Assembly (NCBI GenBank): GCA_016215115.1
Contig: JACRLN010000050.1
Span: 1 to 48,667 of the forward strand
From: Nitrospirota bacterium
Lineage (GTDB): Bacteria > Nitrospirota > Thermodesulfovibrionia > UBA6902
Length of the DNA: 48,667 bases
Reading direction: 5' to 3'
Every line of letters starts with the position of its first letter. The first letter of the stretch is position 1. Made by a program: the position numbers and the translations under genes. The notes beneath the pieces are model-generated. The model ran no database searches. It saw only the letters and a list, made by a program, of their open reading frames with translations, and was not told where the DNA came from. Positions 7,477-28,130 of the stretch are shown one piece after another.

Positions 7477-7802
7477 CAGTCACCCACTGCCGTAAAGGAC
7501 GCAATGACCAGGTCTTCCTTTGATGCATTGCGTATCGCGTGATCAACAAGGGGCTGAACGATAACGATCTTACCGTTGCCGATCACCTGCATCTCGCCTG
7601 CTATCATGAATTCTCCCTGTCCCTCCATAACTATCCAGACATGGTTATCGTGATGGGTATGGGTGGTTATCTCCTGGCCGGGCTTCATGCAGATAAGGTT
7701 TATCTTTGTGTGCTTGTCAGACCATATTGTTTCTGTGTGCCGCTTTGTTTCATCAAATTTTTTAAGCTGGTTAATATCAAGTATCAAGGTCTTGTTCGAC
7801 AT
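7476..7802 (-). CDS. cupin-domain protein
   Basis: A single small cupin of 108 residues. The first cupin motif is recognisable as GQEITTHTHHDNHVWIVMEG, with His ligands spaced H-x-H and a His where many cupins have Glu. The second motif is near PLVDHAIRNAS. Cupins with this motif usually bind a divalent metal and act as a sensor, isomerase or dioxygenase; the substrate is unknown. The ATG at 7802 has TTGGAGGAC upstream and is preferred over the TTG four codons before it. The stop touches the pqqD start, so it belongs to the radical SAM cassette. A role in modifying or stabilising the peptide product is possible but unsupported. Confidence 0.75.
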   Translation of the reverse strand: MSNKTLILDINQLKKFDETKRHTETIWSDKHTKINLICMKPGQEITTHTHHDNHVWIVMEGQGEFMIAGEMQVIGNGKIVIVQPLVDHAIRNASKEDLVIASFTAVGD

Positions 7803-7873
7803 GATGTCCTCCAAATTTATTATTTATTCAAATCGTAAGCGATAGTACTTTTAGCATAGCTCATGTCAGGGAA

Positions 7874-9830: not shown

Positions 9831-11057
9831 TTAATCAAGTCCTGACTGGAATTCAGGGGCAAAGGTCTCACCTCTTTTGCGGTAGAGAAGCCCGACCGCA
9901 AACAACGCGCAAAGACCCAGGAGTATCGCAATTTTCCCCTCGTACGGCGTCCCGGCAGCATTTCCTCCAAGCCCCCAGTTTTGCACGAGTGCTGCGCCGG
10001 TCAGCATTCCGAGCACAGACGCGCCTGCATCAGTATCGCCCTGACCTGCGGCTATCAACTGCCGGAACGGGCAGCCTTTTATAAGCACGGAGCCAAAGCC
10101 AACTAAGAGCATGCCAAAGAAATTCCAGAGATGGCTGTCATTTGAACTGGGCTGACCGTACCAGCCGAGGGAGAACTGTCCGGTAAGAATACTCGCGACA
10201 AATGCGAACAGGAAAAAAGAAACCATACCGAGTGCAAGGCCTGTAGTTTTGGGGCAGAAAGTGAATTCCTTTGACCCCCAAAGGAACAATCTTGATATGC
10301 CTCCGGTTATACAAAAACCTGTGCTCTGTCCTAAAGCACCGATGCCGAGGCCTGCGATGAGAGAAAGGTAGAGAGGAGCATGCTGCGCTCCAGCCCCTTT
10401 GCTGCTCAGCGATATGAAATCGGGTTTCAACAGAAGGACTCCAAGCAGGGATGCCATTAATAGAGGAATTAAAAGGGCATTTGCCGCAGGAAGCTTATTC
10501 GGTCTGCCAAGGCTGAAACCTCTTTCGAGAAACTTCAGACCGATATATACGCCTGCTACGAGTCCTCCCATACCGATCCATGCCGTGAGGTCTCCCGCCG
10601 CGATTTTGAAGACCATCTTAATTGGACATCCCATGAATACAGCGCATCCGATTATCATGAGGATCCCTACAAAATATCTGAGAAGGGGCGAACTTCCGCC
10701 GGTGGCCCTGAACTCTTTTTTATAAAGCGACATAAAGAACGAGCCTATGACAAATCCGATGATCTCCGGCCTCAGGTACTGCATTCTCGTATTTCCATGA
10801 AGTCCGATCGAGCCTGCAATGTTCTCCATAAAACATGAGACACAAAAACCGGTGTTAGCCGGATTGCCCAGGAAACTGAGAATGACTCCGGTAATGCCGA
10901 TAATCGCCCCTGTCAGGATAAAAAGACCCTTCGGATAACATTCTGTTTCCGAAGAAATTGTCAAACTGCTGGTCCAGTTCCGTATCCTTCCCAAGACCCA
11001 GTTTACGGGTCTGATCTTGCAGACATCTTTTGCAGTTATTTCAGATAAATTTCCCAT
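9831..11057 (-). CDS. YeeE/YedE-family transporter, selenium-associated YedE type
   Basis: Polytopic membrane protein of 408 residues with about ten hydrophobic helices and the duplicated YeeE/YedE architecture. Cysteine landmarks are TGFCVSCF, GCPIKMV, TGFCITGG and KGCPFRQL, pairs typical of thiosulfate and sulfur-compound channels. The N-terminal GNPANTGFCVSCF...IAGSIGLH and RPEIIGF resemble the subgroup annotated as the YedE-related selenium metabolism membrane protein. Transport of a selenium or sulfur species across the inner membrane is therefore plausible, and the window does encode a selenoprotein. The usual partner, a TusA-like protein, is not adjacent. The upstream neighbour is a TPR protein whose stop is 23 bp away. 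Confidence 0.78.
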   Translation of the reverse strand: MGNLSEITAKDVCKIRPVNWVLGRIRNWTSSLTISSETECYPKGLFILTGAIIGITGVILSFLGNPANTGFCVSCFMENIAGSIGLHGNTRMQYLRPEIIGFVIGSFFMSLYKKEFRATGGSSPLLRYFVGILMIIGCAVFMGCPIKMVFKIAAGDLTAWIGMGGLVAGVYIGLKFLERGFSLGRPNKLPAANALLIPLLMASLLGVLLLKPDFISLSSKGAGAQHAPLYLSLIAGLGIGALGQSTGFCITGGISRLFLWGSKEFTFCPKTTGLALGMVSFFLFAFVASILTGQFSLGWYGQPSSNDSHLWNFFGMLLVGFGSVLIKGCPFRQLIAAGQGDTDAGASVLGMLTGAALVQNWGLGGNAAGTPYEGKIAILLGLCALFAVGLLYRKRGETFAPEFQSGLD

Positions 11058-11080: not shown

Positions 11081-11608
11081 TCAGGAGCAGCTTCCGGCAA
11101 TCTTTCTCTGTAAATAATAGACATTCTTTCTGCCGCTGTTCATGGAAGCATCATCCGGATTCAGGCGAATTGCCTTTTCAATCTCGGTCAATGCCTCTTT
11201 GACAGCCACCTTTAATTTTTTCCCCTGAAAAAGTGTTGTCTTCTTATCAAGGTAGTCAGGATTCAGATCAACAGCCTGCCTGTACTCGGGCATCGCCTTA
11301 AGCGGCTCCTGTCTCCTCATGGAAATATCTCCCATCATCATATGGGGTTCTCCCTCATGAGGATATTTCTGCATGAGTTCCCGGGTCAGGGCTTCGGCCC
11401 TGTCAAGAGTATTGGCCTCAATAAGGGTCCTTATCAATTTAAGTTCTTCGGCCATCTCGCCATTTACCGCAGGACGCTCCGCCAGGGCCTTTCGTTCGTG
11501 CACTATACTGTCCGGTCCGGCCTCACCCATATGACTGCTGATAAGCACAACTGCAGTGATGATGAGAAGGACGATAGCCAGTCCGGATATTTTGTCAAGC
11601 CGGTCCAT
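11081..11608 (-). CDS. membrane-anchored TPR protein
   Basis: The protein begins MDRLDKISGLAIVLLIITAV, a single N-terminal membrane anchor or uncleaved signal. About 120 residues follow with tetratricopeptide-like helices: ANTLDRAEALTRELMQKYPHEGEPHMMMGDI, PLKAMPEYRQAVDLNPDY and ALTEIEKAIRLNPDDAS. I place the start at the ATG 11608, just after the stop of the PhnD-like gene, whose last codons supply AGAGGT as ribosome site. A longer frame extends upstream into that gene but lacks sense as protein. TPR proteins of this sort scaffold periplasmic or cytochrome-maturation complexes, as in CcmI/NrfG. The nearby ResB homolog fits that, but a specific partner is not shown. Confidence 0.72.
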   Translation of the reverse strand: MDRLDKISGLAIVLLIITAVVLISSHMGEAGPDSIVHERKALAERPAVNGEMAEELKLIRTLIEANTLDRAEALTRELMQKYPHEGEPHMMMGDISMRRQEPLKAMPEYRQAVDLNPDYLDKKTTLFQGKKLKVAVKEALTEIEKAIRLNPDDASMNSGRKNVYYLQRKIAGSCS

Positions 11609-11612
11609 AATA

Positions 11613-12518
11613 TTAATACCTCTGATACGGCGGCATGTTCGTCCTCTTTGCCATGTCGCGAATGCCGTCGAAGTCCCTGTCTGTGACATCTTCGTATCCG
11701 TCGATATGTGCCCGTTCAAGGGCCTTTATTACCTCACCGTTAAACTCGACAGTATCATCTTTCTTAATATTCAGCAGCACATCTTTGAACCTCTTTGCGA
11801 AATCCTCCGGTATCTTCTGGGTAACCGCAAAGTTGCAGTACGGGACCGGTTCTCCTTCTGCAAGGACTGTAAAGTCTCCCGGGTCGATCCTGCCGTCAGC
11901 GATCATCCGTTCATAATCAAGAAGCGGTGCAGCGCCCGCATCATATTTTCCGAAGAGCACGCCGTAGATGACCTTTTCATGTTTGAACGATCCTGCAGGG
12001 ATAGAATAATACGCGAGGTCGCTCTCAGGGTCGATCCCGTTCTTCATAAGTATATCCAGTTGGGCCATATATGAAGTAGGTCCGAGTGCGGGGCCGAATA
12101 TCATGGACTTGCCCCTAAGTTCCTGGACGCTCTTTATCCCGCTCTTTTTTGAAGCGATGATCAGGCCTTTTACCCTGGCGCCAAGGGATCCTGATTTCTC
12201 TGCTGCAAGGACCTCGACCCCGTTGTTTCTGTTCATGATTACATACAGCAATGAATTTGTATGTGTAAAATCCAGTTCGTCCACGTGTTTTGTAAAATCC
12301 GAGGTGTCAAGCGCGACTGCCTCAAACCGAACCCCCATCTTTTTGCTCAGGTATGCTGTGAAGGGTTTGAAGCGCTGAAGCGTCTCCTGTTCACTGTTGC
12401 AGATCATGTATCCGATCTTATATGTTTTCCTGTTGTCTGTGGTAGGCGCCTGAGTACAGGACATGACTAATAAAAGAACAGCAATGGACATATATATTGT
12501 AAATTTACCTGTATCCAT
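11613..12518 (-). CDS. PhnD/SsuA-type periplasmic binding lipoprotein
   Basis: A 301-residue lipoprotein. The signal peptide ends in the lipobox LLLVMSC, giving a lipidated Cys near residue 21. The mature part starts YKIGYMICNSEQETLQRFKPFTAYLSKKMGV and has the phosphate/phosphonate-binding pattern GKSMIFGPALGPTSYMAQLDILMKNGIDPESD and GKYDAGAAPLLDYERM. No ABC permease or ATPase lies nearby. As with other orphan PhnD-like proteins beside cytochrome genes, it may sense or bind an oxyanion rather than import it. The start overlaps the end of resB by 14 bp with AGAGG upstream, so expression is coupled. Confidence 0.82.
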   Translation of the reverse strand: MDTGKFTIYMSIAVLLLVMSCTQAPTTDNRKTYKIGYMICNSEQETLQRFKPFTAYLSKKMGVRFEAVALDTSDFTKHVDELDFTHTNSLLYVIMNRNNGVEVLAAEKSGSLGARVKGLIIASKKSGIKSVQELRGKSMIFGPALGPTSYMAQLDILMKNGIDPESDLAYYSIPAGSFKHEKVIYGVLFGKYDAGAAPLLDYERMIADGRIDPGDFTVLAEGEPVPYCNFAVTQKIPEDFAKRFKDVLLNIKKDDTVEFNGEVIKALERAHIDGYEDVTDRDFDGIRDMAKRTNMPPYQRY

Positions 12519-13428
12519 AAAGCCTCTTGAATAAAAATATGATAGATCCTATTCCGGCAACCGCAAACCCTACATACACATACGGGACGCCGGGGTCGTT
12601 CGTTATCTGAATTCCTGCAAAAGGAAAGCCGTATTCATCAGTATCCACTTTGGTATTATAAAAACTGAATTTTCCCCACGTCAACGGATGGTTTACCTCA
12701 GATGTTCCCTCTGTTACCACTTCTGAATCTTTCGACAGGCTGAGGTCCACCCACAGTCTTTTCAGTGAAGGATTTTGATAGGCCACGAGCTTGAACTCAT
12801 AAGGGAAATCTGCAGGGAGGGTGTTATCTCCGAGCGTGTCTGCAGTGCCGACAAGATTATCTCCGTCATAAATACTGAGGTTGAGCTTCTGCGCCTGCAT
12901 CAATTCCAGGTTATCTGCCTTGACAGTGAACTGCTCCAGATGAAAGCTTTCACCGGTCTTAAGCATGAAGAGCCCGACCTTTTCCTTTCCTCTGAGGACG
13001 CCTACTTTTACAGCTACCGGATAATATTGTACATTTATTTTTTTCACCATTATATCAACTCCAAGCGGCATGTCCTTCTTTAAGTCCCACCGGTAAACTT
13101 TGTCAGCCTTTTTTCCCTCGTAGATGTTCACTGTTGCAATGTAACCAAAGGAACTGATCACTGCACCGGCAAAGCTCATAAGGACCCCAACATGTATTAC
13201 AATGACCGCTTTTGCGATCGTCTTTATCCGTTGCAGCGTGCACAGCGCTAAGTTCAGACCTACGAGCCCGAAGATCATGCTGCCCCACGTGCCTAACTGA
13301 ATGTCCTCTGTCTTTATGAAAGTCCTTGGGATTAAAAAAAGGCAGAGGACCAGGAAGATCCCCAGGGTAAACTTCTTTGATCCAAAAAAAAGATACAGCC
13401 ATTCAAACCTCTTCAATGACCACCGCAT
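12505..13428 (-). CDS. resB: ResB-like cytochrome c biogenesis protein
   Basis: Membrane protein of 307 residues resembling ResB/Ccs1 of system II cytochrome c maturation. It has N-terminal helices (FTLGIFLVLCLFLIP, MIFGLVGLNLALCTL and a third helix VIVIHVGVLMSFAGAVISSFG). A large extracytoplasmic beta-rich domain follows (YEGKKADKVYRWDL to FYNTKVDTDEYGFPFAGIQI), then a last helix YVYVGFAVAGIGSIIFLFK. ResB helps deliver heme to apocytochrome c outside the membrane. Its partner ResA or ResC/CcsA is not in the window. It fits a block whose first gene encodes a cytochrome with more than thirty heme sites. It is shorter than many ResB proteins, so it may be a specialised paralog. Confidence 0.8.
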   Translation of the reverse strand: MRWSLKRFEWLYLFFGSKKFTLGIFLVLCLFLIPRTFIKTEDIQLGTWGSMIFGLVGLNLALCTLQRIKTIAKAVIVIHVGVLMSFAGAVISSFGYIATVNIYEGKKADKVYRWDLKKDMPLGVDIMVKKINVQYYPVAVKVGVLRGKEKVGLFMLKTGESFHLEQFTVKADNLELMQAQKLNLSIYDGDNLVGTADTLGDNTLPADFPYEFKLVAYQNPSLKRLWVDLSLSKDSEVVTEGTSEVNHPLTWGKFSFYNTKVDTDEYGFPFAGIQITNDPGVPYVYVGFAVAGIGSIIFLFKRLYGYR

Positions 13429-13440
13429 TGGCCTTTCTTG

Positions 13441-14022
13441 TTATATAAGTTTTATTGATTTTAGAAAATCCCGCGCGACGGTCCTGGGCTTCCCGCCGGA
13501 TTCCACGGAATTGATCAGTTTTGTATACATATCATCATTAATACTGCCGCCGAGTTTGTTAATCAGCCTCGGAAGCGCAGGGAAATTAATCAACACATCA
13601 TCGGTAATCACAGGGACGTAATAATACTGTCCTATACCATCTTCACGGTTAAGCATTCCAAAGGGTTTCAGCCATATGAGGTTTAATCTGTTCCTGAACT
13701 CTTCCTTTAAAACATCATATGCCTTTGCATTATCCTCATTTTTAGAGATATTCAGGATCTTTGATGCGCGCTCGGTATTTTCAATTATTATGCTGACTTC
13801 GACGTTCTTCACTGCATCGTAAATATCTTTTGAATCGCTGTAAACCTTGATGTTAACAATCGTGCCTGTTCTCTCATTTACCAGCACCGAGACCAATTCG
13901 GCAAGAAAGTTTTCATTAACCGAATTCAGAATGCCTATATTCAGGATTTTGCCGACACAGGCGTGTGAATGGCTGGCAGAAAGAAGCAATATTGCCAACA
14001 GGCCTGAAATTATCTTTTTCAT
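13441..14022 (-). CDS. OpuAC-like substrate-binding domain protein
   Basis: Secreted protein of about 193 residues. The signal peptide is MKKIISGLLAILLLSASHSHA, with an immediate Cys. The mature sequence CVGKILNIGILNSVNENFLAELVSVLVNERTGTIVNIKVYSDS follows the start of glycine betaine-type binding proteins (OpuAC): a thiol-containing opening, then a domain that recognises the substrate. Later LIWLKPFGMLNREDG also fits. At under 200 residues it is only about two thirds of the usual length, so one lobe may be reduced. The start is the ATG at 14022; a GTG at 14031 overlaps the stop of the upstream gene. No transporter partner is seen. Confidence 0.62.
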   Translation of the reverse strand: MKKIISGLLAILLLSASHSHACVGKILNIGILNSVNENFLAELVSVLVNERTGTIVNIKVYSDSKDIYDAVKNVEVSIIIENTERASKILNISKNEDNAKAYDVLKEEFRNRLNLIWLKPFGMLNREDGIGQYYYVPVITDDVLINFPALPRLINKLGGSINDDMYTKLINSVESGGKPRTVARDFLKSIKLI

Positions 14023-14027
14023 CTCTG

Positions 14028-14825
14028 TCACTTCACCTCAACAACAATATCAAAATTATCCTTACCGGATTCAATAATCAATTCTTTGTAAATGCTGTAA
14101 CTGCGCGGCGGAAATTTATCGGTGTACCCTATTATGTATTTCCCCTTTGGCAAATAAAGAGCATAATGTCCTGCTTCGTCAGACCATGAAGATATAAAGT
14201 CAGACATTTCATTTAAATGTGAATCTCCTCCCTCTGTCAATAGTGGATTAAGTGATGTATCCCTTCCTTTTCTGTCAGCAATGACATAATACATCTGTAT
14301 AGGCATGCCATTCTTGTCAACTACACGCCCTGACATCCTTAAATAATCCTCCCTTGTCTTTCTTGTCAGACTCGCAGCATCCCTGATATCCGCCACTTTA
14401 AAATTCATCTCAAGCTCTCTATCAGCTTTAACCCAGATATCAACCGGTTCTCCTGAATGTTTGTCTCCAACCATAAGAGGCCCATATTTGTCGCCCCTTC
14501 TCAATCTCGCTACCGCCCAATACTTTCCGGACGGCAACGTCATAGTGAAATGTCCATCATCATCCGTGCGACCTGATATGAAATCAGCAGGCCTCCTGGT
14601 ATCAGGAGAATTATAAATAAATATCTCTGCCACTTTAACTGCATTGCCTTCTACGTCAAAGACCTGCCCCCTGAAAGCAGCCGTATCGACAGCGATCACT
14701 TTCTGGACGCCGAATGACTGCATTAAAGCAATTAAAATAAGGGCGATTCTAAAGATATTGTCAAGCAGGCGCAAATATTTGTTTATCTCCCATAATAGCA
14801 AAGAGGCCTGATTTAATTTCTCCAT
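14028..14825 (-). CDS. carboxypeptidase-regulatory-like (CarboxypepD_reg) surface protein
   Basis: A 265-residue protein with a hydrophobic N-terminal segment (IFRIALILIALMQSFG) and two beta-sandwich units of the carboxypeptidase regulatory type. The first is FRGQVFDVEGNAVKVAEIFIYN...FTMTLPSGKYWAVARL, the second MSGRVVDKNGMPIQMYYVIAD...YALYLPKGKYIIGYTD. Such domains act as stalks or adhesive modules outside the cell; there is no enzymatic site. The start overlaps the end of the beta-helix gene by 13 bp, which shows operon structure. The same module occurs in the products at 17584 and 18446, so the block carries a family of related surface proteins. Confidence 0.75.
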   Translation of the reverse strand: MEKLNQASLLLWEINKYLRLLDNIFRIALILIALMQSFGVQKVIAVDTAAFRGQVFDVEGNAVKVAEIFIYNSPDTRRPADFISGRTDDDGHFTMTLPSGKYWAVARLRRGDKYGPLMVGDKHSGEPVDIWVKADRELEMNFKVADIRDAASLTRKTREDYLRMSGRVVDKNGMPIQMYYVIADRKGRDTSLNPLLTEGGDSHLNEMSDFISSWSDEAGHYALYLPKGKYIIGYTDKFPPRSYSIYKELIIESGKDNFDIVVEVK

Positions 14826-17359
14826 CTCAATTCCAACTGCTCCTTAAAAAACGGCTTATAAATAACTTCCCCTATCCCGGGCTCACGTCTTGCGTCAAAT
14901 ATCGTCGCAGCAGGGTCATCTACTCCCCACCAGTTTTCCCGCGCATCAACGTCTTCAGTATTAAAATCCCCTACTCTGAGATTGTAAGCCTTGTTTGAAT
15001 AAATATTGTTATTCTTAATGGTTATTCCGCCTCCTTTTTCTCTCACAAATATACCGACCTCATTATTTAATATAACATTTCCCTCTACCAATGCATTCCC
15101 GAAGTATGACCTGATCCCGACGTTATTTTCTTTAAATAATGAATATCTGACCTCAACAGGGCCGCTCCTGAATCGTAGGCCCCCATAGTTGTGCAAGAAA
15201 CGGCTGTTTGAGATTTTCAGATTGGTGAAATGGCTGTGAATCGCCCATGTCGCATATTCAAAATCGCAGAAGGAGAATTCACTCCCATCAGCATGCTCAA
15301 GAAGTATTTCGTCCCACAGATCATCTTTGTTTTTATCCTCAGAAGTAAAAACAATCCTCCCGTCCTCTTTTCCTGTCGCAAGGATTTTCCCGGATAAAAT
15401 CTTTATTCCTGTTCCTTTTAAGAATGAAATCTTCGTGGCAGGAGAAAGTTCGAGCGTTACTCCGGAAACATTAACACTATTTTTCAATATAATATCTCCG
15501 AGCCATGTTATATCAGCAAAAATATCTTTGACCGGCCATGTAAATGGCAACTGATTTTCCTTAATCGGCGCATATAATATTCTTCCTCTTCCAGGATCAT
15601 CTTCTTTATCGTAAATTACACTGCCTGCATCCTTTCCTCCCCACCAGTTTGAAGGAGCAAAGATATCCACGGCGCTTTCATTCTCAATAGCACAAAGGCC
15701 GTTTGAGGCAATACTGTTTTCGGTTATTATTCCTGTAAATGATTGAACACCAATACCTCTTTCACCGTTTCCTAGAATAAAATTATCTTTAATTAATGCC
15801 CTGCTATCCTGCAGGTTTATACCGTTAAATCCGTTGCCCTGAATGAAATTTTCGCTAACCTCAATATTGTCAGACCCTTTAAGCGACAGACCCGATTCAT
15901 AATTATTCACAATAACATTACCGCTGAACTTTCCATGAAAGGCATCGTTCACCATCATGCCGTATCTGCCGCACCCTATGAAATTTTCATCAGCGTTTGT
16001 GACGCCTTCCCTGATCTTAAATCCCTCGTTCATATTACCGAGGATTTTATTGTTTGAAGCAGACAAACTTGAGCGGAAAAAATTGACGCCGTTGATATTG
16101 TTATAGACATAGTTATCGGTAAAGACGATTTCCGAGTCCCTGCCCTTGACCCCGCTCTTATTATTAAAGATATAGTTGCCTTTCATCTCCACTGCCGATT
16201 CCTGAAACTGAATGGCCCGGTAATTATTGCTCAGGACAGACCCCTGCACCATCACATTGGAAAAATGGAAATGGAGCCCCCGGTAGGCATCCTCTATGCG
16301 GCAGTATTCCACCAGGTTCTGCGCGCCGTCGCTGTTCATAATATTTATGCCGTCCCAGTCACCCATTGAACGCGCTGTTCCCGCAGACCGGAATATGATC
16401 GGATTATCTCTTGTGCCCTTTGCGATGAGTACCCCCTGCATAAGCAGCCCGTTCTCCCCTATGCCGTCGCCGTTTGTGTCCTTTTTTGTGAACTCGATAA
16501 CGGTACCTGGAACAATGACAAGCCTGACCTTTTCAGGCACCCTTATCAGACCGTTGACCACAATCCTGCCACGCCAGACCGTATCTCCAGGCAAAACCTC
16601 GTCGTTGTATACTTTTGTCACTTCTTTCTCCAGCGCTTTATATTCTTTCATAAATCCGGTCGCAGGTTTATTGCAGGAAACGTAACGCCCTGCAATCAAG
16701 TCTTTTATCTCCGGTTTGACCATGTCGGGTTTCAGAACAACTACCTTATCTGCTTCGATCAGATATAAGTCTCTCTTCCTGTTATCTGCAATAATGTTTT
16801 TTTTGTAATTAACCTTTGCGCCTGCAAATGCAAATACTCCGTAATCATTATTTGCAACCTGTGTTTTCTTCATGCTCACAAAAGCCTGCGGCCCCTGCGC
16901 AATAAGGCCATACCGGTTATTTTCAATAATAGAATCGGTTAATTCAAGAGACCCGTTCATTATAAGAAGGCCTGTTTCCGCATCCTCAATCCTGCACGCT
17001 TTTATATATGCATTTCCTCTGTCAATAATTATTCCTGCCCAACGGTCAGGTTTATCATTTTTCACTTGAAATACGACTGGCGCTTCCCTGGTTCCATCAA
17101 TCACAAGCCTGCCCCTGATTGTCATCTCGGTCATGAATGAAAGGTATTCCGCCCCGTTCTTTGTCCTATCGGAAGGAATGATGTTTACCATTGTGCCGGA
17201 TAGAATAGTGAGTGTAACGCCTTCAGGCACAACGATGTCTTCTGTAAGAGTTATTTCGCCTTTCCAAACGGTATCTCTTATAATGGTTTTTCCTGAGGCG
17301 CAATAAGGTAATAAAACAAAAAAGATAAGAAACAGGAGTGTTGTTCTCAAAAATTCCAT
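14813..17359 (-). CDS. secreted right-handed parallel beta-helix protein
   Basis: An 848-residue secreted protein. The signal peptide is LLFLIFFVLLPYCASG, ending near residue 23. The rest is made of three units, each opening with a threshold such as IIRDTVWKGEITLTEDIVVPEGVTLTILSGT and followed by parallel beta-helix turns (PbH1/NosD style) rich in N-N, for example NNYGVFAFAG, NNKSGVKG and GNGFNGINLQDS. Each unit ends in ENWWG or NWWGG plus DDP(A/G). The same WWG-plus-YDEN/KPF ending appears in the product of 18446. Beta-helices of this type bind or process polysaccharides or serve as surface scaffolds. The gene follows a terminator-like hairpin, so it may begin a new transcript. Confidence 0.8.
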   Translation of the reverse strand: MEFLRTTLLFLIFFVLLPYCASGKTIIRDTVWKGEITLTEDIVVPEGVTLTILSGTMVNIIPSDRTKNGAEYLSFMTEMTIRGRLVIDGTREAPVVFQVKNDKPDRWAGIIIDRGNAYIKACRIEDAETGLLIMNGSLELTDSIIENNRYGLIAQGPQAFVSMKKTQVANNDYGVFAFAGAKVNYKKNIIADNRKRDLYLIEADKVVVLKPDMVKPEIKDLIAGRYVSCNKPATGFMKEYKALEKEVTKVYNDEVLPGDTVWRGRIVVNGLIRVPEKVRLVIVPGTVIEFTKKDTNGDGIGENGLLMQGVLIAKGTRDNPIIFRSAGTARSMGDWDGINIMNSDGAQNLVEYCRIEDAYRGLHFHFSNVMVQGSVLSNNYRAIQFQESAVEMKGNYIFNNKSGVKGRDSEIVFTDNYVYNNINGVNFFRSSLSASNNKILGNMNEGFKIREGVTNADENFIGCGRYGMMVNDAFHGKFSGNVIVNNYESGLSLKGSDNIEVSENFIQGNGFNGINLQDSRALIKDNFILGNGERGIGVQSFTGIITENSIASNGLCAIENESAVDIFAPSNWWGGKDAGSVIYDKEDDPGRGRILYAPIKENQLPFTWPVKDIFADITWLGDIILKNSVNVSGVTLELSPATKISFLKGTGIKILSGKILATGKEDGRIVFTSEDKNKDDLWDEILLEHADGSEFSFCDFEYATWAIHSHFTNLKISNSRFLHNYGGLRFRSGPVEVRYSLFKENNVGIRSYFGNALVEGNVILNNEVGIFVREKGGGITIKNNNIYSNKAYNLRVGDFNTEDVDARENWWGVDDPAATIFDARREPGIGEVIYKPFFKEQLELRWRN

Positions 17360-17401
17360 AAACTATATTGTAAGGCAATAATTGCACATAAGGAAAGAAA
17401 A

Positions 17402-17446
17402 CAGCAGGGCGGTGGAATCTTAAAATTAACTTTCACCGCCCTGCTG
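17402..17446 (-). terminator. rho-independent terminator after the second 20-codon gene
   Basis: CAGCAGGGCGGTG (17402-17414) is repeated inverted as CACCGCCCTGCTG (17434-17446), a 13-bp perfect stem around a 19-base loop. On the minus strand it is followed by TTTTCTTTCC. It sits 21 bp after the stop of the small gene at 17467 and before the beta-helix gene, so it probably ends the transcript that starts at the giant cytochrome. Confidence 0.75.
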
Positions 17447-17466
17447 CAAGCTCCGATCCTTCATAA

Positions 17467-17529
17467 TCAACAGGGGTGAATAGCGGCGCTCCCGACTATT
17501 CTGGGAGGAACATATTTTATCTTCTTCAA
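17467..17529 (-). CDS. 20-residue conserved peptide, copy A
   Basis: Start TTG at 17529 with GGAGG six bases upstream; product MKKIKYVPPRIVGSAAIHPC, stop TGA. It is nearly the same peptide as copy B at 20655-20717: 16 of 20 residues match, and the four differences are K/R, R/K, V/I and A/V. At the DNA level nine further codons differ only synonymously, the pattern expected of a translated and selected gene. The peptide has a basic start, a YVPP turn and a C-terminal HPC. It follows the 17584 gene and precedes a terminator. Its size is that of a PqqA-type precursor, and a PqqD/radical SAM cassette lies in the same block. A role as substrate is inference; I do not recognise the family. Confidence 0.8.
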   Translation of the reverse strand: MKKIKYVPPRIVGSAAIHPC

Positions 17530-17583
17530 ACCGCACCTCCTTCCGCTACCTACCACAGGATTAATGGCAGGCGTGATGATTTG

Positions 17584-18453
17584 TTATTTCTTATTTTCAA
17601 TCTTCTTCTCCATCTCCTGTTGCATCTTTTTTATTTGATTTTCCCGGAAATTCTCGTCAGCTCCAGCTCCCGGCTGATGCTTGGGACCCATCTCGAGATG
17701 CCTTATCACCTTTATGTCTATGCCCTTTGTCATCTCGCCTGTCTTCGCGGTTGCGGCAGTAGGCTTTTCTTCTCCATAGCCGCCCATGATCGACCCGGGA
17801 ATGGGCGGGCCTCCTCCGTATACGTCTCTTACTCTGAGGAAATATTGTCCCCCCTTATCTACGGTGATGATATATTTGCCGTCCTTTCCGGTTTTATATG
17901 AAGTAAAGGTCGGAATCCCGGTCATTGTCTCCGTATAATATGCAAACAATATCGCCCCCTCAACAGGCTTTCCTGCCATATCAAGGATGGTGCCCGATAT
18001 ACCGGTGACTCCTTCAGGGAGTGACCTTTTATACGGGACGGCCCCTGCAAGGGCTCCGAGCTTTAATTCTTTGCCGTACTCGATAACGTGCTGTATAGGA
18101 TTGCCTTCTTTGTCCCCGCTGATAAAGAAATAATCTCCGTCAAGCGGCGGGCCTGCTTTTTCAGTGGATGCTCTTTTAATCGCTCCGATGTAGTACTTGC
18201 CGGCAGGAAGCGAGATGCGAAACCTGCCTTCAGCATTTATTTCGTCTATCCCGTTCGGAACCCTGAAGTATTTATCAAGAGACGGCGGCGGTCCGGATTG
18301 GGTATCAAAGAAAACTATCATGGCATCGGCTAACGGCCCGTCGTCCTTGATCATTATTTGACCTGAGATCCAGCCAGTCTCAATTTCCGCATGGATCGCA
18401 GTTGCTGATAACACTGCAATCAGAAATGACAGAAATATGATTTTTTTAATCAT
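17584..18453 (-). CDS. secreted carboxypeptidase-regulatory-like protein
   Basis: A 289-residue secreted protein with signal peptide MIKKIIFLSFLIAVLSATAIHA. It contains two beta-sandwich units: ISGQIMIKDDGPLADAMIVFFD...FRISLPAGKYYIGAIKR and ISGTILDMAGKPVEGAILFAYY...YIITVDKGGQYFLRVRD. The charged tail NQIKKMQQEMEKKIENKK is probably helical. Proline- and glycine-rich stretches (GGGPPIPGSIMGGYG) look like flexible linkers. It starts 8 bp inside the end of the upstream carboxypeptidase-regulatory/beta-helix gene, so the two are co-translated, and it is followed by the 20-codon gene copy A. The probable location is the periplasm or cell surface. Confidence 0.75.
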   Translation of the reverse strand: MIKKIIFLSFLIAVLSATAIHAEIETGWISGQIMIKDDGPLADAMIVFFDTQSGPPPSLDKYFRVPNGIDEINAEGRFRISLPAGKYYIGAIKRASTEKAGPPLDGDYFFISGDKEGNPIQHVIEYGKELKLGALAGAVPYKRSLPEGVTGISGTILDMAGKPVEGAILFAYYTETMTGIPTFTSYKTGKDGKYIITVDKGGQYFLRVRDVYGGGPPIPGSIMGGYGEEKPTAATAKTGEMTKGIDIKVIRHLEMGPKHQPGAGADENFRENQIKKMQQEMEKKIENKK

Positions 18454-20506
18454 GATGCCTCCCTTTTCCGGCTCCTGCGTTTTTTACCGGGGCGTTATAA
18501 AATGGTTTGTAGATTACACCGCCTAAAGAAACGTCTCTGTTTTCATCGTATATGGCATTCTTGATATCCTCTTCTCTGTCGCTTCCCCACCAGTTGTCAC
18601 TTAGCAATATATCATATCCCTGTCTTTCACCCAGTCTGAAATTATATTCAGTATTATACGAAATATTGTTGTAAGTGACAATAAATTGTTTGCGTGGAAG
18701 GGCATCTTTTTTGTCGAATGTGTTTGAAAAACCCACTATATTCTGGTTCGACGGCACAAGGAAAATGCCGACACCGTTATTTCTGATGTTGTTGTATGTG
18801 ATTTCGACAGGCTCTTCAACCCTTGTATGTCTGATGCCGTAAGTATTATCGAAGATGTCATTATGCTCAATGCGAAGATCGGCCCTGCCGAACCTTATGC
18901 CTTCATAATTATTTCTAAAGACAGAGTCTTCAATTACCGCTTTTGAAAAATGTACCTGAACGCCGGTAAAGGCATATTCAAATATGCAGTATCTTAAAAT
19001 GCTCTCATCGCCTGACACAAAAAACAGGAGATATGACCAGTCCGCTTTATCCGGCGTTGTCTCAGCGGAAGTAAATCTGATGGGCCTTTTTGCAGAGCCC
19101 TGCGCCTTAAGCCTGCCGCTAACCTTTATCATGGCGTCTCCAACCCCGTCTCCTGTCCGGTCAATCTTCTTAAATCTGACTGTTGTCCCAGGAGCAATGG
19201 TTAGTGTTACTCCTCGGGCTACGTGGACGATCCCGGAAATTAATATGTCTCGTTCCCACACGGTATTATTACAGATAACCACATCCCCTTTGTATTCATG
19301 ATTGCCAACCTTTTCTTCTGACTTCCGGCTTCTGACTTCTGACTTCTTTTTGCTCGCCTCCATCACCCTGTTTACAAAAATATTTACGCCATCATGCGAT
19401 TTGCCATTCATTATAAACAAGTGATTTGCGTTCGCTTCATAAAGCCCATAGTATTCGCCTTTGACAGGGGCCTCCCCGGCGAACTGCCGGGCCACCAGGT
19501 AATATGCACCCTCTGCTGCGTCTATTGAGTAGTACCCTTTCACATCAGTTCTGGCCATATAATCAGGCATGGTCCTTACGTAATGCATCTGAAACATATC
19601 CGAGGTCTTTCCCTTGTAAGCCATGACATAGAGGTCTTTCACAGGATTGCCCTCCAAGTCGGTTGCCCTTCCTTTTATCATGAAGACATCCTGTGCCGCA
19701 TTGAGTTTATTTTCCCTGAACCTCAAGCTGTCAGCATCTGATTTTTTTACCAGAATCGCAGGATAGGCGTCCTCATTAAGAAAGGCCTTGAGGTCGTCTT
19801 TTGGATAACATGGGATCTCCGCCTGTGTTTCTGTTGAATCCGTGAGCGTCACGGGATTGTCGGGAAGATAACAGAAGAGGTCTCCTTTTTCGAGAGGAGT
19901 CATGCTGCTGTTGCTCAACCTCTTGCGCGCAATAACAACATATTCTCCCAGCTCAATGCTCATGCTGAACCCCCCGTTGTTATCGGTTGTGTTTGTAAGA
20001 AAACCCATACCCCTGAAAACAGAGTTTGGAGCCAGGAGTTCGGAGTTAAGAGTTAAAGCTGGCACGGGATAGATTGAAACCTGCGCGCCTTTGACAGGAG
20101 CACCCTTGAAGAGGACTTTGCCTGAAAGCTTCGCAGAAGCTGATTCCTTTACATTCACTGCTGTTTCAGGAACAGCCATAAATGGAACCCAGAGATTTTG
20201 GTCTTCAACCTTGACCGGATTGGCTCCGTGATAGGAAAAATATTTTTTATCGCCGGACTGTCCTGACGCGGTTAAATAATATATTCCGGACGGCAACTCT
20301 ATTTTGAAGAATCCTTCTTTTTTGCCCGGGGCGGAAACATAAGCCGGAATTCCTTTTTTAATATCCTGAAACCTGATATAAGCTTGCACCTTTGAGTCAT
20401 TAAGCGCACCGTCTTCCGAAAGCACAACCCCTTCAATAACAGCGGAATATGAAGATGTGGCAGAAAAAAAAATTACAAGTAAAAAAGCGATTACGTGAAT
20501 CTGCAA
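18446..20506 (-). CDS. secreted CarboxypepD_reg plus beta-helix protein
   Basis: I place the start at the TTG 20506, which gives the signal peptide MQIHVIAFLLVIFFSATSSYSA; an ATG at 20536 lies inside a dispersed repeat, and reading further upstream runs through the repeat and the 20-codon gene. The mature protein has three carboxypeptidase-regulatory units (VIEGVVLSEDGALNDSKV, LSGKVLFKGAPVKGAQV, IKGRATDLEGNPVKDLYV). A right-handed beta-helix follows from GDVVICNNTVWERDI onward, ending in DNWWGSDREEDI and YKPFYN. It thus fuses the two domain types found separately in its neighbours. Two 8-base-period repeats are inserted in frame: one gives LTLNSELLAPNS, the other KKKSEVRSRKSEEK, just before the beta-helix. 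Confidence 0.72.
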   Translation of the reverse strand: MQIHVIAFLLVIFFSATSSYSAVIEGVVLSEDGALNDSKVQAYIRFQDIKKGIPAYVSAPGKKEGFFKIELPSGIYYLTASGQSGDKKYFSYHGANPVKVEDQNLWVPFMAVPETAVNVKESASAKLSGKVLFKGAPVKGAQVSIYPVPALTLNSELLAPNSVFRGMGFLTNTTDNNGGFSMSIELGEYVVIARKRLSNSSMTPLEKGDLFCYLPDNPVTLTDSTETQAEIPCYPKDDLKAFLNEDAYPAILVKKSDADSLRFRENKLNAAQDVFMIKGRATDLEGNPVKDLYVMAYKGKTSDMFQMHYVRTMPDYMARTDVKGYYSIDAAEGAYYLVARQFAGEAPVKGEYYGLYEANANHLFIMNGKSHDGVNIFVNRVMEASKKKSEVRSRKSEEKVGNHEYKGDVVICNNTVWERDILISGIVHVARGVTLTIAPGTTVRFKKIDRTGDGVGDAMIKVSGRLKAQGSAKRPIRFTSAETTPDKADWSYLLFFVSGDESILRYCIFEYAFTGVQVHFSKAVIEDSVFRNNYEGIRFGRADLRIEHNDIFDNTYGIRHTRVEEPVEITYNNIRNNGVGIFLVPSNQNIVGFSNTFDKKDALPRKQFIVTYNNISYNTEYNFRLGERQGYDILLSDNWWGSDREEDIKNAIYDENRDVSLGGVIYKPFYNAPVKNAGAGKGRHHD

Positions 20507-20531
20507 TTTAATTACAGCCTCTTGAAAAGTC

Positions 20532-20599
20532 GTCATTCCCGTGCTTAAGCACCTACTGTTGGTGAAAACCTGCCTGCCAGCAGGCAGGCGGGAATCCAG
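20532..20599. repeat. dispersed palindromic repeat, GTCATTCCCG family, copy 2
   Basis: It begins GTCATTCCCG and ends GCGGGAATCCAG, with an inner palindrome CTGCCTGCCAGCAGGCAG. It lies between the 20-codon gene copy B and the following gene, and it supplies an ATG (in the complement of GTCATTCC) that makes that gene seem longer than its signal peptide suggests. Confidence 0.7.
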
Positions 20600-20654
20600 A
20601 GTGTTGTGTAACCCATTGAAAATACTGCATCCCAGAGTTTCCCCAAGTTTATAC

Positions 20655-20717
20655 TCAGCACGGATGTATAACTGCGCTGCCGATGATCTTTGGCGGAACA
20701 TATTTTATCCTCTTCAT
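20655..20717 (-). CDS. 20-residue conserved peptide, copy B
   Basis: ATG at 20717 with AAGGGGG seven bases upstream; product MKRIKYVPPKIIGSAVIHPC, stop TGA. It is the paralog of copy A at 17467-17529. Compared codon by codon, nine codons differ synonymously and four give conservative replacements, with none lost or gained, so the peptide itself is conserved. It starts 80 bp after the stop of the giant fibronectin gene and lies 148 bp before the next gene, with a dispersed repeat between. There is no signal peptide or Gly-Gly site. It may be a precursor peptide for the radical SAM/PqqD cassette, or an unmodified micropeptide. I do not recognise the family. Confidence 0.82.
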   Translation of the reverse strand: MKRIKYVPPKIIGSAVIHPC

Positions 20718-20796
20718 CTCAATACCCCCTTCCATGTTGTAAAATTCATGTCCTAAAAAACGTCATTGACCTGAAGACGCAATTTCTTTATTCAAT

Positions 20797-23700
20797 TTAC
20801 TGGCACGTCCCGTCGCCTGTCTGATACGCCGGCGTTGCGACTGACGCCTCGTTGCTGTAAGGCGACTTGTCCGCGCCTCTAAACGCCCTGATCCTGTATG
20901 TGTATGATTTCTCGGGTTCGATGCTCCTGTTGTCCGTATACGTAATTACATTGGGAGCAAGCGTTGCTATCTTTACAAACGTGCCGTTCCATATCTTAAC
21001 TTCCACTTCAAAGCCGTCTTCATCGGCTGAGTTGTCAACCCAGTCAAGTTTTATCTTCATGGAATTAAGTGCCGTGGCTGTCAGGCTTGTCGGCTTAGCC
21101 GAGAAGGTCATATCACACGATGCACTGCTGTAATCGGTAGTCCACCCGCATGTCGCTGTCTTGTACGCCCTCACACGATAGCAATAGTTCACAGACGGCG
21201 TCAGGCCTGTATCGATGTAGGAGGTTGCGTTTGCGGCTGCTGTGGCGGTTTCAGTAAAGTTGTTGCACCCCGTGCCCTCGCACCTCTCGATCCTGAAACC
21301 AGTCTCGTCGGTCGTGTTATCCGTCCATGACAAGGTTGCACTTGTATCAGTGGCTGCTGTTGCCGCAAAGCTGCTTGGCGCGGCGATGGCTGATGTTGTC
21401 GCAGATGAAGTGCTGCTGTAACCTGAATTCCAGGCTGGCGATGTCTTGTAAGCCCTCACCCTGTAGCTGTAGCTTGTTGAGTTGCATACAGATGTGTCCT
21501 GATACGTTACTACGTTTGCCCCGACAGTATTTATCTGCGCAAAGTCGCTGCATTCCGTGCCTGCACACCTCTCTATCTTGAATCCCGTCTCGGTTGCCGT
21601 ATTGTCTGTCCATGCAAGATTTATCTGCGTGGTACTAACCGTTGTAGCCGTAAACCCCGAGGGCTCTGTAATGCTTGTTGTTACAGAAGGAGTATTACTT
21701 GCATTACTTGCATCATCCCACCCGCATGTCGCAGTCTTGTACGCCCTCACACGATATGTGTAAATCGTTTCCGGTGTAAGGCCGGTATTGTTGTATGTCG
21801 TTGCATTAGCCGCTGCAGTTGTTAACAGCGTAAAGTTACTGCACCCTGAACCTGTGCACCTCTCGATCCTGAATCCGGTCTCATCAGATGTTGTGTCTGT
21901 CCATGAAAGGTTTATCTGAACTTCAGAAATTCTCGTTGCAGTAAGCACAGACGCAACCGGAGTAGGTGTCACTGCCGTTGCTGTGCCGCTGTAATTTGAA
22001 TCCCATTCACCGGTCTTGTAAGCCCTCACCCTGTAGCTGTAGCTTGTTGAGTTGCATACAGATGTGTCCTGATACGTTACTACGTTTGCCCCGACAGTAT
22101 TTATCTGTGCAAATTCGCTGCATCCCGCGCCCGTACACCTCTCTATCTTGAATCCGGTCTCAGAGCCGCTATTGTCCGTCCATGAGAGGTTTATCTGTGT
22201 AGTGTTCGCTGCTGTTGCTGTAAACCCTGACGGAGGCACAACAAGGGTCGTCTCTGTCCTTACGTTACTGTATCCCGTTTCCCAACTGCATGTCGTTGTC
22301 TTGAACTCCTTTATGCGGTAGCTGTAGGTCTCTCCCAGTGTAAGTCCCGTATTACTGTATGTTGTCACTCCGGCGCCCGGCGATATCAGCGTTGTAAAGT
22401 CGCTGCAGCCGACGCCTATGCATCTTTCAATTACAAAGCCTGTCTCATCCGTTGCCGTGTCTGTCCATGAGAGGTTTACAAATGTATCTCCCACGGATGC
22501 CGTTGAAAGCACAGGGGCCGTTATCCCGGGAGTCGTAACAGGAGCTTCATTGCTCGGCTGTGTCTCCCATGTAATGTCGTATGTGAAGCAGGCTGATGTT
22601 TCTTCAGCTCCTGCGGATGCCGATGGCTCTGTGGCAGCGTATTTCTGAACGGTGATTAATTGTACGGTCGCCTGATGTGAGTTCTGTGTAAATGCCACTC
22701 GCATGGTTGCATCATTATAGGTTGACGTATCTTTTACCAGCGTCCAGCCTCCGTATGCCCCGCCCTTGATATAGTACTTTGCTCCTGTGGCCTTAAGCTC
22801 TATCTTCATCTCATAAGTCGTGCTTGCTGCATATGCCCCAGTTCCACTGGTATTATTCCCCTTTTCATAGGCAGTCAGGGCGTAATTGTTCCAGTAGAAT
22901 CCATGCACAAGCTGTGTATAGCTTGCACTTGCGGTCTGGTTCAGTTCCCATCCCATCATAAGGAGATTGTTCCCCGGGGTGTCGGCCGCAATGGTGATCT
23001 TTGAATATATCATCTTATCAGCTGCCCTTGTGATCGTCTGGTTTGAAATAAGCGCCTTGTCCCAGGTATCGCTCACGTCATTTAGTATAAGACTGTTATT
23101 CTGGGCTATGGAATTATTCGGGTCTATCTCCGTCCATTTGGTTGTGCTGATTGTAGTTCCTGCGAAGTTATCAAAGAATTCAAATACAAGCGTTCCGTCG
23201 CTTGTGCCCGTAGCGTTCGCGTTGCCGTAATACATGTAAATTGTATTGTTGCCCCCTGTCTTGACCCAGATTGTTGCCGAGATACCGTCGGTCTTGCTCT
23301 CTATCCAGTGCGGAAGCTCTGAGAACGCCGTAGTGTCGTAAAACCGGATGTCGTCAAAGTCAGCCTGCATGTCCGCATCATATGTAACCGTCACCTTTGT
23401 CTGAAAGTCAGACTGAAAGTTCATTATCGTAAGCGGCACACGCCTTGTCCAGCAGCCGCCGCCCCCGCCTGAAAGCCCTTCATTTATCGCCTTGACGCGG
23501 TATCTGTAATCCATTGTGTTGCACACGGATGTATCGGAATATGAGGTAGTGTTGCGTGAAAGCTTTGTAAGCTCCGCAAAATTACTGCACCCGGCACCTG
23601 TACACCTCTCTATCTTAAACCCTGTCTCAGACCCTGTGTTGTCTGTCCATCCAAGATTGACCTGGGTTGTATTTGCAGCCGTTGCGGTCAGTCCGCTCGG

Positions 23701-26700
23701 AGAAGGCACCGTTGTTGTAGTGCCTGAAGCAGTGGCGCTGTAGGCTGTATTCCAGCCGCCGTTGCACGTTGCGTCTTTGTATGCTCTCACACGATAATTG
23801 TATGTGGTCGAAGGAGTAAGTCCCGTGTTGTTATATGTAATTATGCCTGCGCCTACTGTCGTTATCTCCGCAAAATCGCTGCATCCTGCACCAGCGCACC
23901 TCTCTATCTTAAAACCGGTCTCATCCGATGTGTTGTCTGTCCAAGTTAAAGTCAGTTTCACTTCCGTTGCGCCGGAAGTCGCAAGGCTGCCGGGCGCTGA
24001 AGGCGTGCCTGTTGTTCTCGATACTGTGCCGCTGTAGCCTGAATCCCATTCACCCGTCTTGTAAGCCCTTATCCGGTAACTGTAGCTTGTAGCACTACAC
24101 ACTGATGTGTCTTGATAAGTTGTCGTGTTTGCCCCTACAGTTGTAATCTCCACAAAATTGCTGCATCCAGATCCCGAACACCTTTCGATCTTAAACCCTG
24201 TCTCGCTTGCAGTGTTGTCCGCCCACGATAGATTGATCTGCGTAGAGTTTGGAGAGCTCGATGTCAGGCCTGAAGGCGCTGAAATGCTTGTCGTTGCCGC
24301 AGATGTCCCACTCGTGGTCTCCCATGAACAGGTTGCGGTCTTGTACGCCCTCACACGATATGTGTAAGTCGTTGCTGATGTAAGACCGGTGTTGTTGTAT
24401 GTTGTTGTGCTTGCAGCAACTGATGCTATTTCCGCAAAGTCGCTGCATCCGGCCCCTGTACACCTGTCCACCGCGAAGCCCGTCTCATCCGACGTTGTGT
24501 CCGTCCATGAGAGGTTGATCTGCACCTCTGAACTCCTTGTTGCCGTAAAACTTCCGGGCGCTGACGGATTTGCAGTTGTTGCTGATGCTGTCCCGCTGTA
24601 CGCGCTCTCCCACTGTCCTGTTTTGTATGCTACTACCCGATAACTGTATGCGGTTGCTTTACATACCGAGATGTCCTGATATGTAATGGTATTTGCCGCC
24701 ACCGTTGTCAGTTCTGTAAAATTGCTGCACCCTGCGCCGCTGCACCTCTCTATCCTGAAGCCTTCCTCTGCACTGGTGTTATCAGTCCATGACAGATTGA
24801 CCTGCGTCGTGTTTGCCGTTGTTGCGGAAAGCCCGCCTGGCGCTAAAGGGGTTAGGGTGGTCGTGACCTTCTCCGTCCACACCGATGACTCCCCGTTGTT
24901 CCTGAACGCCTGCACCCTGTAACAGTACTGGCTCCCTATATTAAGAAGCGTATCGGAATATGACGTGGAGTTTGCAGCTGCCGTGTTTATCAGCACCCAC
25001 GGATTCCCTGAATTACAGGCCCCGACCTTTCTCTCTACATAATAGCCGTCTTCAACCCCTGAGTTGTCAGACCATGCAAGCCCCACTGTCGTGTACGACG
25101 GCGCTGCGTTAAGCGGCACCGGCGGCTGTAGCTGATATCCGCTCACTTTAAGCACTATATAATCTGCGTTACCGTTTGCATTGGTTGTATGACCTCCTAT
25201 GAATGCCTCCCCCATGTAATTGACTGTAATCGAGGATGCCTCATCATTACCGTTTGCCACTCCGTTATAGGTCATCCCTCCGCTGAAGTCCCCTTCTGCG
25301 TTATACCATACTGAAAGTACATCTGCATTGCTACCGCCGTCTGTATACCCCGCAACATGTATATTGCCTGAACGGTCCATTGCCGCTGCTGCCGCAAAGT
25401 CATCACTTGAGGGCCTGTCTAATGTCCTTTGCCATAATACATTCCCGTTAGTGTCGTACCTGATGACGTGAAAATCATGATTGCCATATGAGGTAAGTAC
25501 TGTGCCTGCAACAACCACTTCACCTGTCACTGAGTCAACTTTGACGCTCATCGCCTCATCATTCCCGTTTACAACTCCGTTATAACTGCGCTCCCATAAC
25601 CTCGCTCCTGTTGCACCGTTGTACTTGATAGTGTAGAAGTCTTCATTGCCGCTTGCAGTAACCGAGATGCCTGTAACATAAACATTTCCGGATGAATCTA
25701 CCGCAAGTGAACGCGTAAAGTCATCGCCCGCACCTTCCCCATTAAACACGTCCGTCCAAATAACCGCGCCTGTGCTTCCGTTATACTTCCTTGTGAAATA
25801 GTTATAGTACAGACCGACCTTTGTATATCCCGTCACAAATATATTTCCCGATGAATCAAAGGCCACTGCTGAAGGATAATCATTGCTGCCTCCGTCATAC
25901 GGCGTTGCGGCCCAGGAGCGTGTACCGTTATTCAGATACTTTACTACATATATGTCATCATTCCAGCTCGCGTTCTTCCCGTATCCAACTACAACGTAGT
26001 TATTATTGCCGTCACTCGATACGTCCACTACGCTTGACCGGTCGTCATCTCCGGCCGGCCCATTGTACTGATCTGCCCAGTCTTCAGGAGCTCCTGTGGA
26101 AGGATACCTGAGCGTATAGATATCATTGGTGTTTTCGGCGCCTCCTCCAAACATGTAAGAATACCCTGACACCAAAATGCCATTATTGCCGTCTGCCACT
26201 ATGGTCTCTGCAACATCCATATCGTTTTGGTCGCTGTCATACCTGGCGCCCCATATCGCCGCTCCGGTCTGCCTGTTTATCTTTACCGTGTAATAATCAA
26301 ACTGGCCTGCTGTTGAATAGCTGAAGCCTGTGGCTACAGGATTGTTGTCCGGTCCTGCTGCGATGGCTGTAACATAATCATCTCCGTTATCGCTCCCGTT
26401 ATATATGAAGGTCCATGCCGGTGATGTGTAGGTAACCACGGTTGTCACCGCATAATCTTCATTGCTGTAATGCGAGTCGCCCTGCGACGCGTTGTATGCC
26501 CTCACCCTGTAAAAGTATTTTGTGTCGGAAGTGAGTCCTGTATCGTTGTACGCTGTAACGTTAGCGCCAACAGTAGTAATTTGTGCATACACGCCGAGGT
26601 CTCCTATCTTCCGCTCGATCCTGAACCCGTCTTCCGTGGAAGAGTTGTCCGCCCACAAGAGATTTATCTGTGTTGCCGACGCTGTTTCCGCATTAAGCGC

Positions 26701-28113: not shown

Positions 28114-28130
28114 TTCACTGATCCCTGTTT

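Follow-up and report, generated by a model that had tools for sequence, protein, structure and literature searches.

Two short genes on a contig of a Nitrospirota bacterium (JACRLN010000050.1; the whole stretch of 48,667 nucleotides is referred to here as the window) can be assigned with high probability as precursor peptides of a ribosomally synthesised and post-translationally modified peptide (RiPP) made by the GeoRSP system. The genes of this system, for a PqqD-family chaperone, a radical S-adenosylmethionine (SAM)/SPASM enzyme (TIGR04303) and a putative SPASM-domain partner, lie on the same strand about 10-13 kb downstream. Relatives of the two peptides form a family found almost only in GeoRSP genomes and often beside the radical SAM enzyme, and they are therefore very probably the peptides which it modifies. 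On these sequence grounds the peptides are rated as a putative new family of RiPPs, with the orphan GeoRSP system as maturase. An earlier sequence-only reading of the window had proposed that the two frames are precursors of a modified peptide ending in HPC, and both the co-occurrence and the linkage described below argue in its favour.

Co-occurrence of the peptide and the enzyme was examined in two genome samples, both drawn without regard to the GeoRSP enzyme. The first comprised 396 genomes of the Nitrospirota, the phylum of the window, and the second 247 Desulfobacterota-type genomes around Geobacter sp. AOG1. Searches with tblastn identified the peptide in 31 of the Nitrospirota genomes, with a maximum of 14 copies; 24 of these also carry TIGR04303 and seven do not, while one genome has the enzyme only and 364 have neither. 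The corresponding figures in the second sample are 16 with both, one with the enzyme only, one with the peptide only and 229 with neither. Pooled over the 643 genomes (40 both, 2 enzyme only, 8 peptide only, 593 neither), the association has a Fisher p of ~4e-53, a value that overstates independence because the genomes are related. It holds in the two samples around different phyla and inside single genera, same-genus genomes such as G174, G324 and G368 having neither peptide nor enzyme. Homologues in other genomes are numerous, by tblastn and by a DNA pattern alike, and in the tBLASTn co-occurrence check suggested by the sequence-only reading they are seldom without the GeoRSP radical SAM gene, which is present in 40 of the 48 peptide-positive genomes of the two samples. 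The gene is likewise present in 40 of the 46 genomes that were selected with the DNA pattern for the peptide, among the matches listed.

Two broader associations were rejected. Of the 396 Nitrospirota genomes, 173 carry AhbD-type radical SAM/SPASM genes and about 143 of those lack the peptide (by hand comparison), as against one in 25 for the GeoRSP enzyme, which rules out that the peptide tracks radical SAM/SPASM enzymes generally. Nor does the peptide track CxxxxCH cytochromes instead of GeoRSP, each being found without the other: such cytochromes are present in 10 of the 19 GeoRSP-negative Nitrospirota genomes tested, none of these with the peptide, and none were detected at the threshold used in G262 and G322, which have 14 peptide copies each.

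The assignment of the peptide to the enzyme rests most firmly on enzyme-adjacent gene orders in distant lineages. In the 171 contexts around family members, the gene immediately upstream of the peptide is that of the radical SAM enzyme 26 times, of a multihaem or CxxxxCH protein 46 times, of a carboxypeptidase-regulatory or NosD protein 27 times and of an SBBP/fibronectin type III (FnIII) protein 10 times. The order radical SAM - peptide - SPASM partner was observed in 13 contexts, and at two loci (L222, L223) the peptide start overlaps the enzyme stop by 4 bases. Copies adjoining multihaem, FnIII, NosD and carboxypeptidase-regulatory genes would also suit a peptide that is a partner or cofactor of giant surface proteins and untouched by the GeoRSP enzyme, the two co-occurring through one surface programme; the C-terminal tag WNxx[TS]PW, found on such proteins and discussed below, tracks GeoRSP too. 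This explanation is nevertheless very unlikely, as several lineages place the peptide between or directly after the enzyme genes, CxxxxCH cytochromes and the peptide can each be present where the other is absent, and the cassette includes PqqD, a peptide chaperone.

The assignment of the peptides to GeoRSP has to be weighed against several observations. A convincing peptide with no GeoRSP enzyme detected is present in G374, G386, G022, G063, G084 and G637; most of these are fragmented drafts, but G022 is 93% complete in ~60 contigs. Among the eight peptide-only genomes of the two samples, two represent hits at the level of chance, and the remainder are mostly fragmented drafts, 74-94% complete; PqqD was also not found in most of the peptide-only genomes. 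Four of the 46 pattern-picked genomes are without the enzyme, beyond two chance or misbinned cases. The enzyme-positive genomes G298 and G613 have no recognisable peptide, and a search for divergent peptides near their enzyme genes found none. Most copies are located away from the enzyme and beside other genes, an order that taken alone also fits a surface-protein role, and 17-20 residues is very short for a whole precursor.

Both frames are present in the window where the sequence-only reading had placed them (Table 1), on the minus strand and each with a Shine-Dalgarno sequence, the first with a TTG start; orthologues of this gene in G232 and G328 start with TTG or GTG. They lie between genes, as had been stated, peptide gene 1 in the gap between the genes at 17584-18453 and 14813-17359 and peptide gene 2 between the FnIII gene at 20797-28155 and the frame 18446-20701. 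The latter overlaps peptide gene 2 by its mechanical start at 20701, but the relative in G232, shorter by 64 residues, starts past the peptide. The terminator reported after one of the frames corresponds to an 80-base stretch 3' of peptide gene 1 that folds at ~-37 kcal/mol, a hairpin followed by TTTTC just past the stop. Codon comparison of the pair reproduced the earlier count of nine synonymous and four amino-acid-changing codons, the latter conservative, with synonymous differences per synonymous site (Sd/S) of 10/12.8 and nonsynonymous differences per nonsynonymous site (Nd/N) of 4/44.2. A tblastn search of the 2.8 Mb genome of the window with one peptide detected these two places only, and relatives in other species reach E-values down to 2e-7, so that the frames are more than chance; chance frames are ruled out by the codon pattern together with the recurrence across genomes.

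A degenerate DNA pattern applied to ~85,000 species genomes yielded at least 118 stretches, nearly all of them true members as judged by the start codon and the Shine-Dalgarno sequence, and those listed are titled almost all Nitrospirae, Desulfuromonadales, Geobacteraceae or Deltaproteobacteria. Three of the stretches (L099, L165, L120) look like chance or misbinning; L120, a contig of Phycisphaerae bacterium CS2-K091, carries a typical Desulfuromonas-type peptide with no GeoRSP enzyme and is probably misbinned. At least 155 distinct loci, from Nitrospirota and Desulfuromonadales-type bacteria, make up the collected family. They encode at least 124 different peptides with lengths of 18-20 residues, plus two of 17, and the median in the two genome samples is two copies per genome. 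Its consensus is MKK(xx)YxxPxVVGSxxVHPC-stop. In the pattern-found members Y, P, [GA], [VI] and HPC are fixed by construction, and the claims on conservation are therefore based on the members found by BLAST and by context. The C-terminus is VHPC or IHPC, and among the Shine-Dalgarno-led frames of 16-24 codons with [YFW]xxPx[VIL] at the loci examined, HPC stands at the end in 80 and some other sequence in three. The peptide family is under purifying selection, which bears out the selection on a peptide claimed from the window pair: the proportion of synonymous differences (pS) is 0.77 across the family versus 0.25 for nonsynonymous differences (pN), variation amounts to 1.55 bits at third codon positions and is much lower (0.65) at the first and second, and beyond the frame and its ribosome site the sequence approaches randomness. 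A recognisable GGAGG-type Shine-Dalgarno sequence precedes 151 of the 155 collected loci. No NCBIfam model matches the six full-length members scanned, and no Pfam match was obtained for the one full-length member scanned. About 14 peptide copies are present in G262, G322 and their relatives (L039-L041, L110, L130, L135, L140), where cores with a second Cys (SVCVHPC) alternate with carboxypeptidase-regulatory-domain genes.

The stop codon after the terminal Cys varies among the collected loci (TGA 88, TAA 46, TAG 21), which speaks against a selenoprotein or a selenium-modified peptide. Selenium dependence was rejected as well, as SelD occurs in both GeoRSP-positive and GeoRSP-negative genomes and went undetected in two of the positive ones. 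The genome of the window itself has two selD genes (G000:C8:8365-9291; G000:C42:1733-2647), each with one in-frame TGA that probably encodes selenocysteine.

The 70 bases past the stop fold on average 11.4 kcal/mol better than shuffled sequences over 154 members, and a hairpin therefore follows most copies. It may keep the peptide mRNA in excess over the downstream genes. Hairpins of this strength, and the many copies that precede carboxypeptidase-regulatory or NosD genes, could also be read as regulatory leader peptides, the translation of which controls transcription of the next gene through the hairpin and the amino-acid sequence of which matters for ribosome stalling. Such a role is very improbable given that for 58 of 171 copies no gene on the same strand was found in the 700 bases downstream (in some cases because the contig ends), that many copies stand 3' of either the enzyme gene or a giant gene, at its very end, and that an attenuator leaves both the tracking of the radical SAM enzyme and the recognition-element leader motif unexplained.

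A GeoRSP precursor, on the other hand, would account for features that these genes share with RiPP precursors. One is their linkage, as short genes, to a maturase with which they also co-occur. Another is the leader: YxxPx[LVIFA] is the leader motif recognised by lasso-type RiPP recognition elements (PMC13381572). The BLAST-found members carry YxxPx[VI] in the N-terminal half and the cassette includes a PqqD-type recognition element, so that the motif matches a leader motif for an element encoded in the same cassette, with binding predicted. In the proposed mechanism, the PqqD-type chaperone would bind the N-terminal half through YxxPx[VI], and the radical SAM/SPASM enzyme, aided in many lineages by the SPASM partner, would act on the core, the C-terminal GSxxVHPC, with the invariant [V/I]-His-Pro-Cys end as the most likely place of modification. 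Candidate chemistries, guessed from related enzymes, include cross-linking of the Cys, through a thioether or otherwise, and oxidation or decarboxylation of the C-terminal Cys. Judging by gene order, the product would be trimmed or exported and, in concert with giant multihaem, beta-helix and carboxypeptidase-regulatory-domain proteins, act on the cell surface.

Table 1. Peptide genes, GeoRSP cassette and neighbouring features of the window
Feature	Position	Strand	Basis and remarks
Peptide gene 1	17467-17529	minus	reads LKKIKYVPPRIVGSAAIHPC-stop, TTG start read as M; listed as MKKIKYVPPRIVGSAAIHPC
Shine-Dalgarno AAGGAGGT of peptide gene 1	17535-17542	minus	sequence; few bases 5' of start
Terminator-like strong hairpin, then TTTTC, just 3' of peptide gene 1 stop	17400-17447	minus	folding
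Peptide gene 2	20655-20717	minus	reads MKRIKYVPPKIIGSAVIHPC-stop, ATG start
Shine-Dalgarno AAGGGGG of peptide gene 2	20725-20731	minus	sequence; few bases 5' of start
Putative GeoRSP SPASM-domain partner	5309-6181	minus	best match TIGR04304, 212 bits, E 1e-62, below cut-off 300; adjoins enzyme
GeoRSP radical SAM/SPASM enzyme	6171-7184	minus	TIGR04303, 530.5 bits, cut-off 400; CxxxCxxC at residues 23-30, eight further conserved Cys
GeoRSP PqqD-family peptide chaperone (RiPP recognition element)	7168-7476	minus	TIGR04302, 131.6 bits, cut-off 100
Cupin protein, conserved operon member	7476-7814	minus	Cupin_2
SO_0444/SaoE-type permease, conserved operon member	7874-9787	minus	library match and operon conservation
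YedE-family transporter, conserved operon member	9831-11057	minus	TIGR04112, 387.6 bits, cut-off 200
TPR protein, conserved operon member	11081-11719	minus	library match and operon conservation
PhnD-like periplasmic binding protein, conserved operon member	11613-12518	minus	library match and operon conservation
ResB-like protein, conserved operon member	12505-13428	minus	PF05140
OpuAC-like binding protein, conserved operon member	13441-14031	minus	PF04069
Secreted carboxypeptidase-regulatory-domain protein	14028-14825	minus	PF13620
NosD-like beta-helix protein	14813-17359	minus	PF13229, PF05048
Secreted carboxypeptidase-regulatory-domain protein, directly before peptide gene 1	17584-18453	minus	PF13620
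NosD-like/carboxypeptidase-regulatory protein after peptide gene 2	18446-20509	minus	start estimated from shorter relative in L033
Giant secreted SBBP/FnIII protein, directly before peptide gene 2	20797-28155	minus	same position in G328 and G196
Giant CxxxxCH multihaem protein, ends QKWNNVTQW (C-terminal tag variant)	28131-33200	minus	TIGR01904

The PqqD and radical SAM/SPASM genes that the sequence-only reading had recognised in this block both score above the cut-offs of their models. The order of the block is kept in many Nitrospirota, running from a giant surface protein through the peptide, carboxypeptidase-regulatory, NosD, carboxypeptidase-regulatory and OpuAC genes to ResB, PhnD, TPR, YedE, permease, cupin, PqqD, radical SAM and SPASM. 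In an alignment of 21 sequences the GeoRSP enzyme keeps the Cys residues of the CxxxCxxC motif and of the SPASM domain at all but one position, and its nearest solved structures by sequence are PqqE and SkfB. The SPASM partner has lost CxxxCxxC and keeps seven SPASM Cys in the Cys columns of the alignment, and its structural model has the radical SAM/SPASM fold (pLDDT, the predicted local distance difference test, 85), nearest to SuiB and PqqE; it is therefore probably a non-catalytic helper. Several other lineages have no labelled SPASM partner adjoining the enzyme. At some Desulfuromonas-type GeoRSP loci a cysteine desulfurase-family gene (TIGR01977, over cut-off; L230:8010-9155) is located 3' of the SPASM partner and may possibly supply sulfur. 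The end of the window encodes a non-ribosomal peptide synthetase adenylation-domain protein (46058-48625) beside a 4'-phosphopantetheinyl transferase (45255-46061).

PqqA has a core in which a conserved Glu and Tyr are joined by PqqE, and MftA has a C-terminal Tyr acted on by MftC. By comparison, the peptide resembles a PqqA- or MftA-type RiPP precursor but is neither, having no Glu-Tyr core and no C-terminal Tyr. A very short whole precursor, a separate PqqD chaperone and a radical SAM/SPASM enzyme of the same superfamily are shared with PqqA/PqqD/PqqE. The likeness to PqqA drawn in the sequence-only reading thus stands as to size and falls as to the core, with no Glu in either window peptide, the Tyr in the leader half and GSxxVHPC as the core. 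Unlike the pyrroloquinoline quinone (PQQ) system, the GeoRSP cassette has no other PQQ genes recognised in it, and several peptide copies stand beside surface-protein genes. The mycofactocin system comprises the precursor MftA with MftB and MftC (Haft 2011, PMC3023750). Modification at the extreme C-terminus is expected in both systems, and the GeoRSP radical SAM enzyme achieves a good score with the MftC model (163.7 bits). This is still below the cut-off of 265, and no mycofactocin partner genes were recognised. The peptide also ends in VHPC or IHPC in place of the C-terminal Tyr of MftA.

The YxxPx[VI] leader motif and the separate PqqD-like recognition protein are likenesses to lasso peptide/LPP leaders (PMC13381572), but a radical SAM enzyme replaces the lasso cyclase and leader peptidase, neither of which was found among the window genes scanned against family libraries, and the core is far shorter. 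Sactipeptides and ranthipeptides (SkfB, CteB, PapB) similarly combine a radical SAM/SPASM enzyme with core Cys as possible thioether donor; in contrast to these, most GeoRSP peptides have one C-terminal Cys, and the GeoRSP enzyme is without a fused recognition domain and scores far below the cut-offs of their models. To the GeoRSP system as defined by TIGR04302, TIGR04303 and TIGR04304, the cassette of which is carried by the window, the present analysis adds a candidate precursor that matched no NCBIfam model. Nothing relevant on GeoRSP, TIGR04302-4304 or VHPC peptides was found in the literature, in a search to which subscription papers and preprints were external, and priority is accordingly uncertain.

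Many peptide copies lie within ~150 bases 3' of a gene for a giant extracellular protein. A common C-terminal tag, [Q/R/G]WNx[K/V][T/S]xW, was observed in giant multihaem and choice-of-anchor-Z proteins near peptides (window 28131-33200; L214, L218, L221, L262 and others). In the 46 multihaem/CxxxxCH proteins upstream of a peptide, W[NS]xx[TS]xW occurs within the last 60 residues in 30 and exactly at the C-terminus in 23; it occurs in 6 of 1085 non-haem frames. The form WNxx[TS]PW is present at a stop in 23 of 41 GeoRSP-positive versus 0 of 39 GeoRSP-negative genomes (p 3e-9). Four of its 36 matches read TGG at the stop position, and all 23 genomes keep at least one true stop. The position of the tag, with 13 matches ending 44-274 bases before a peptide gene, and its restriction to the GeoRSP-positive genomes in this comparison would also be in keeping with another protein as the true substrate of GeoRSP, for example a giant protein at its WNxx[TS]PW tag, with the peptide as an activator or guide. 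This is extremely unlikely, given that 18 of the 41 GeoRSP genomes have no tag by the WNxx[TS]PW pattern and nearly all of them have the peptide. With the peptide as the GeoRSP precursor, the tag suggests that the tagged giant proteins are clients or partners of its product. A more specific proposal, offered tentatively and itself rather doubtful, is that the product is a tiny RiPP the modified VHPC end of which serves giant extracellular multihaem and beta-helix proteins as a metal- or redox-active cofactor or anchor, these clients carrying their own precursor copies and many of them the WNxx[TS]PW tag.

Selection and co-occurrence can thus reveal genes as short as these, which ordinary gene calling and family libraries miss. 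An orphan maturase system gains a candidate substrate, and its minimal set would consist of a 20-residue peptide, one chaperone and one enzyme. A RiPP family, with precursors at the short end and copies beside surface-protein genes, would be added to bacteria known for extracellular electron transfer, and, if the proposal on the tagged proteins is true, a peptide cofactor would be paired with a protein tag at the surface of metal-reducing bacteria.

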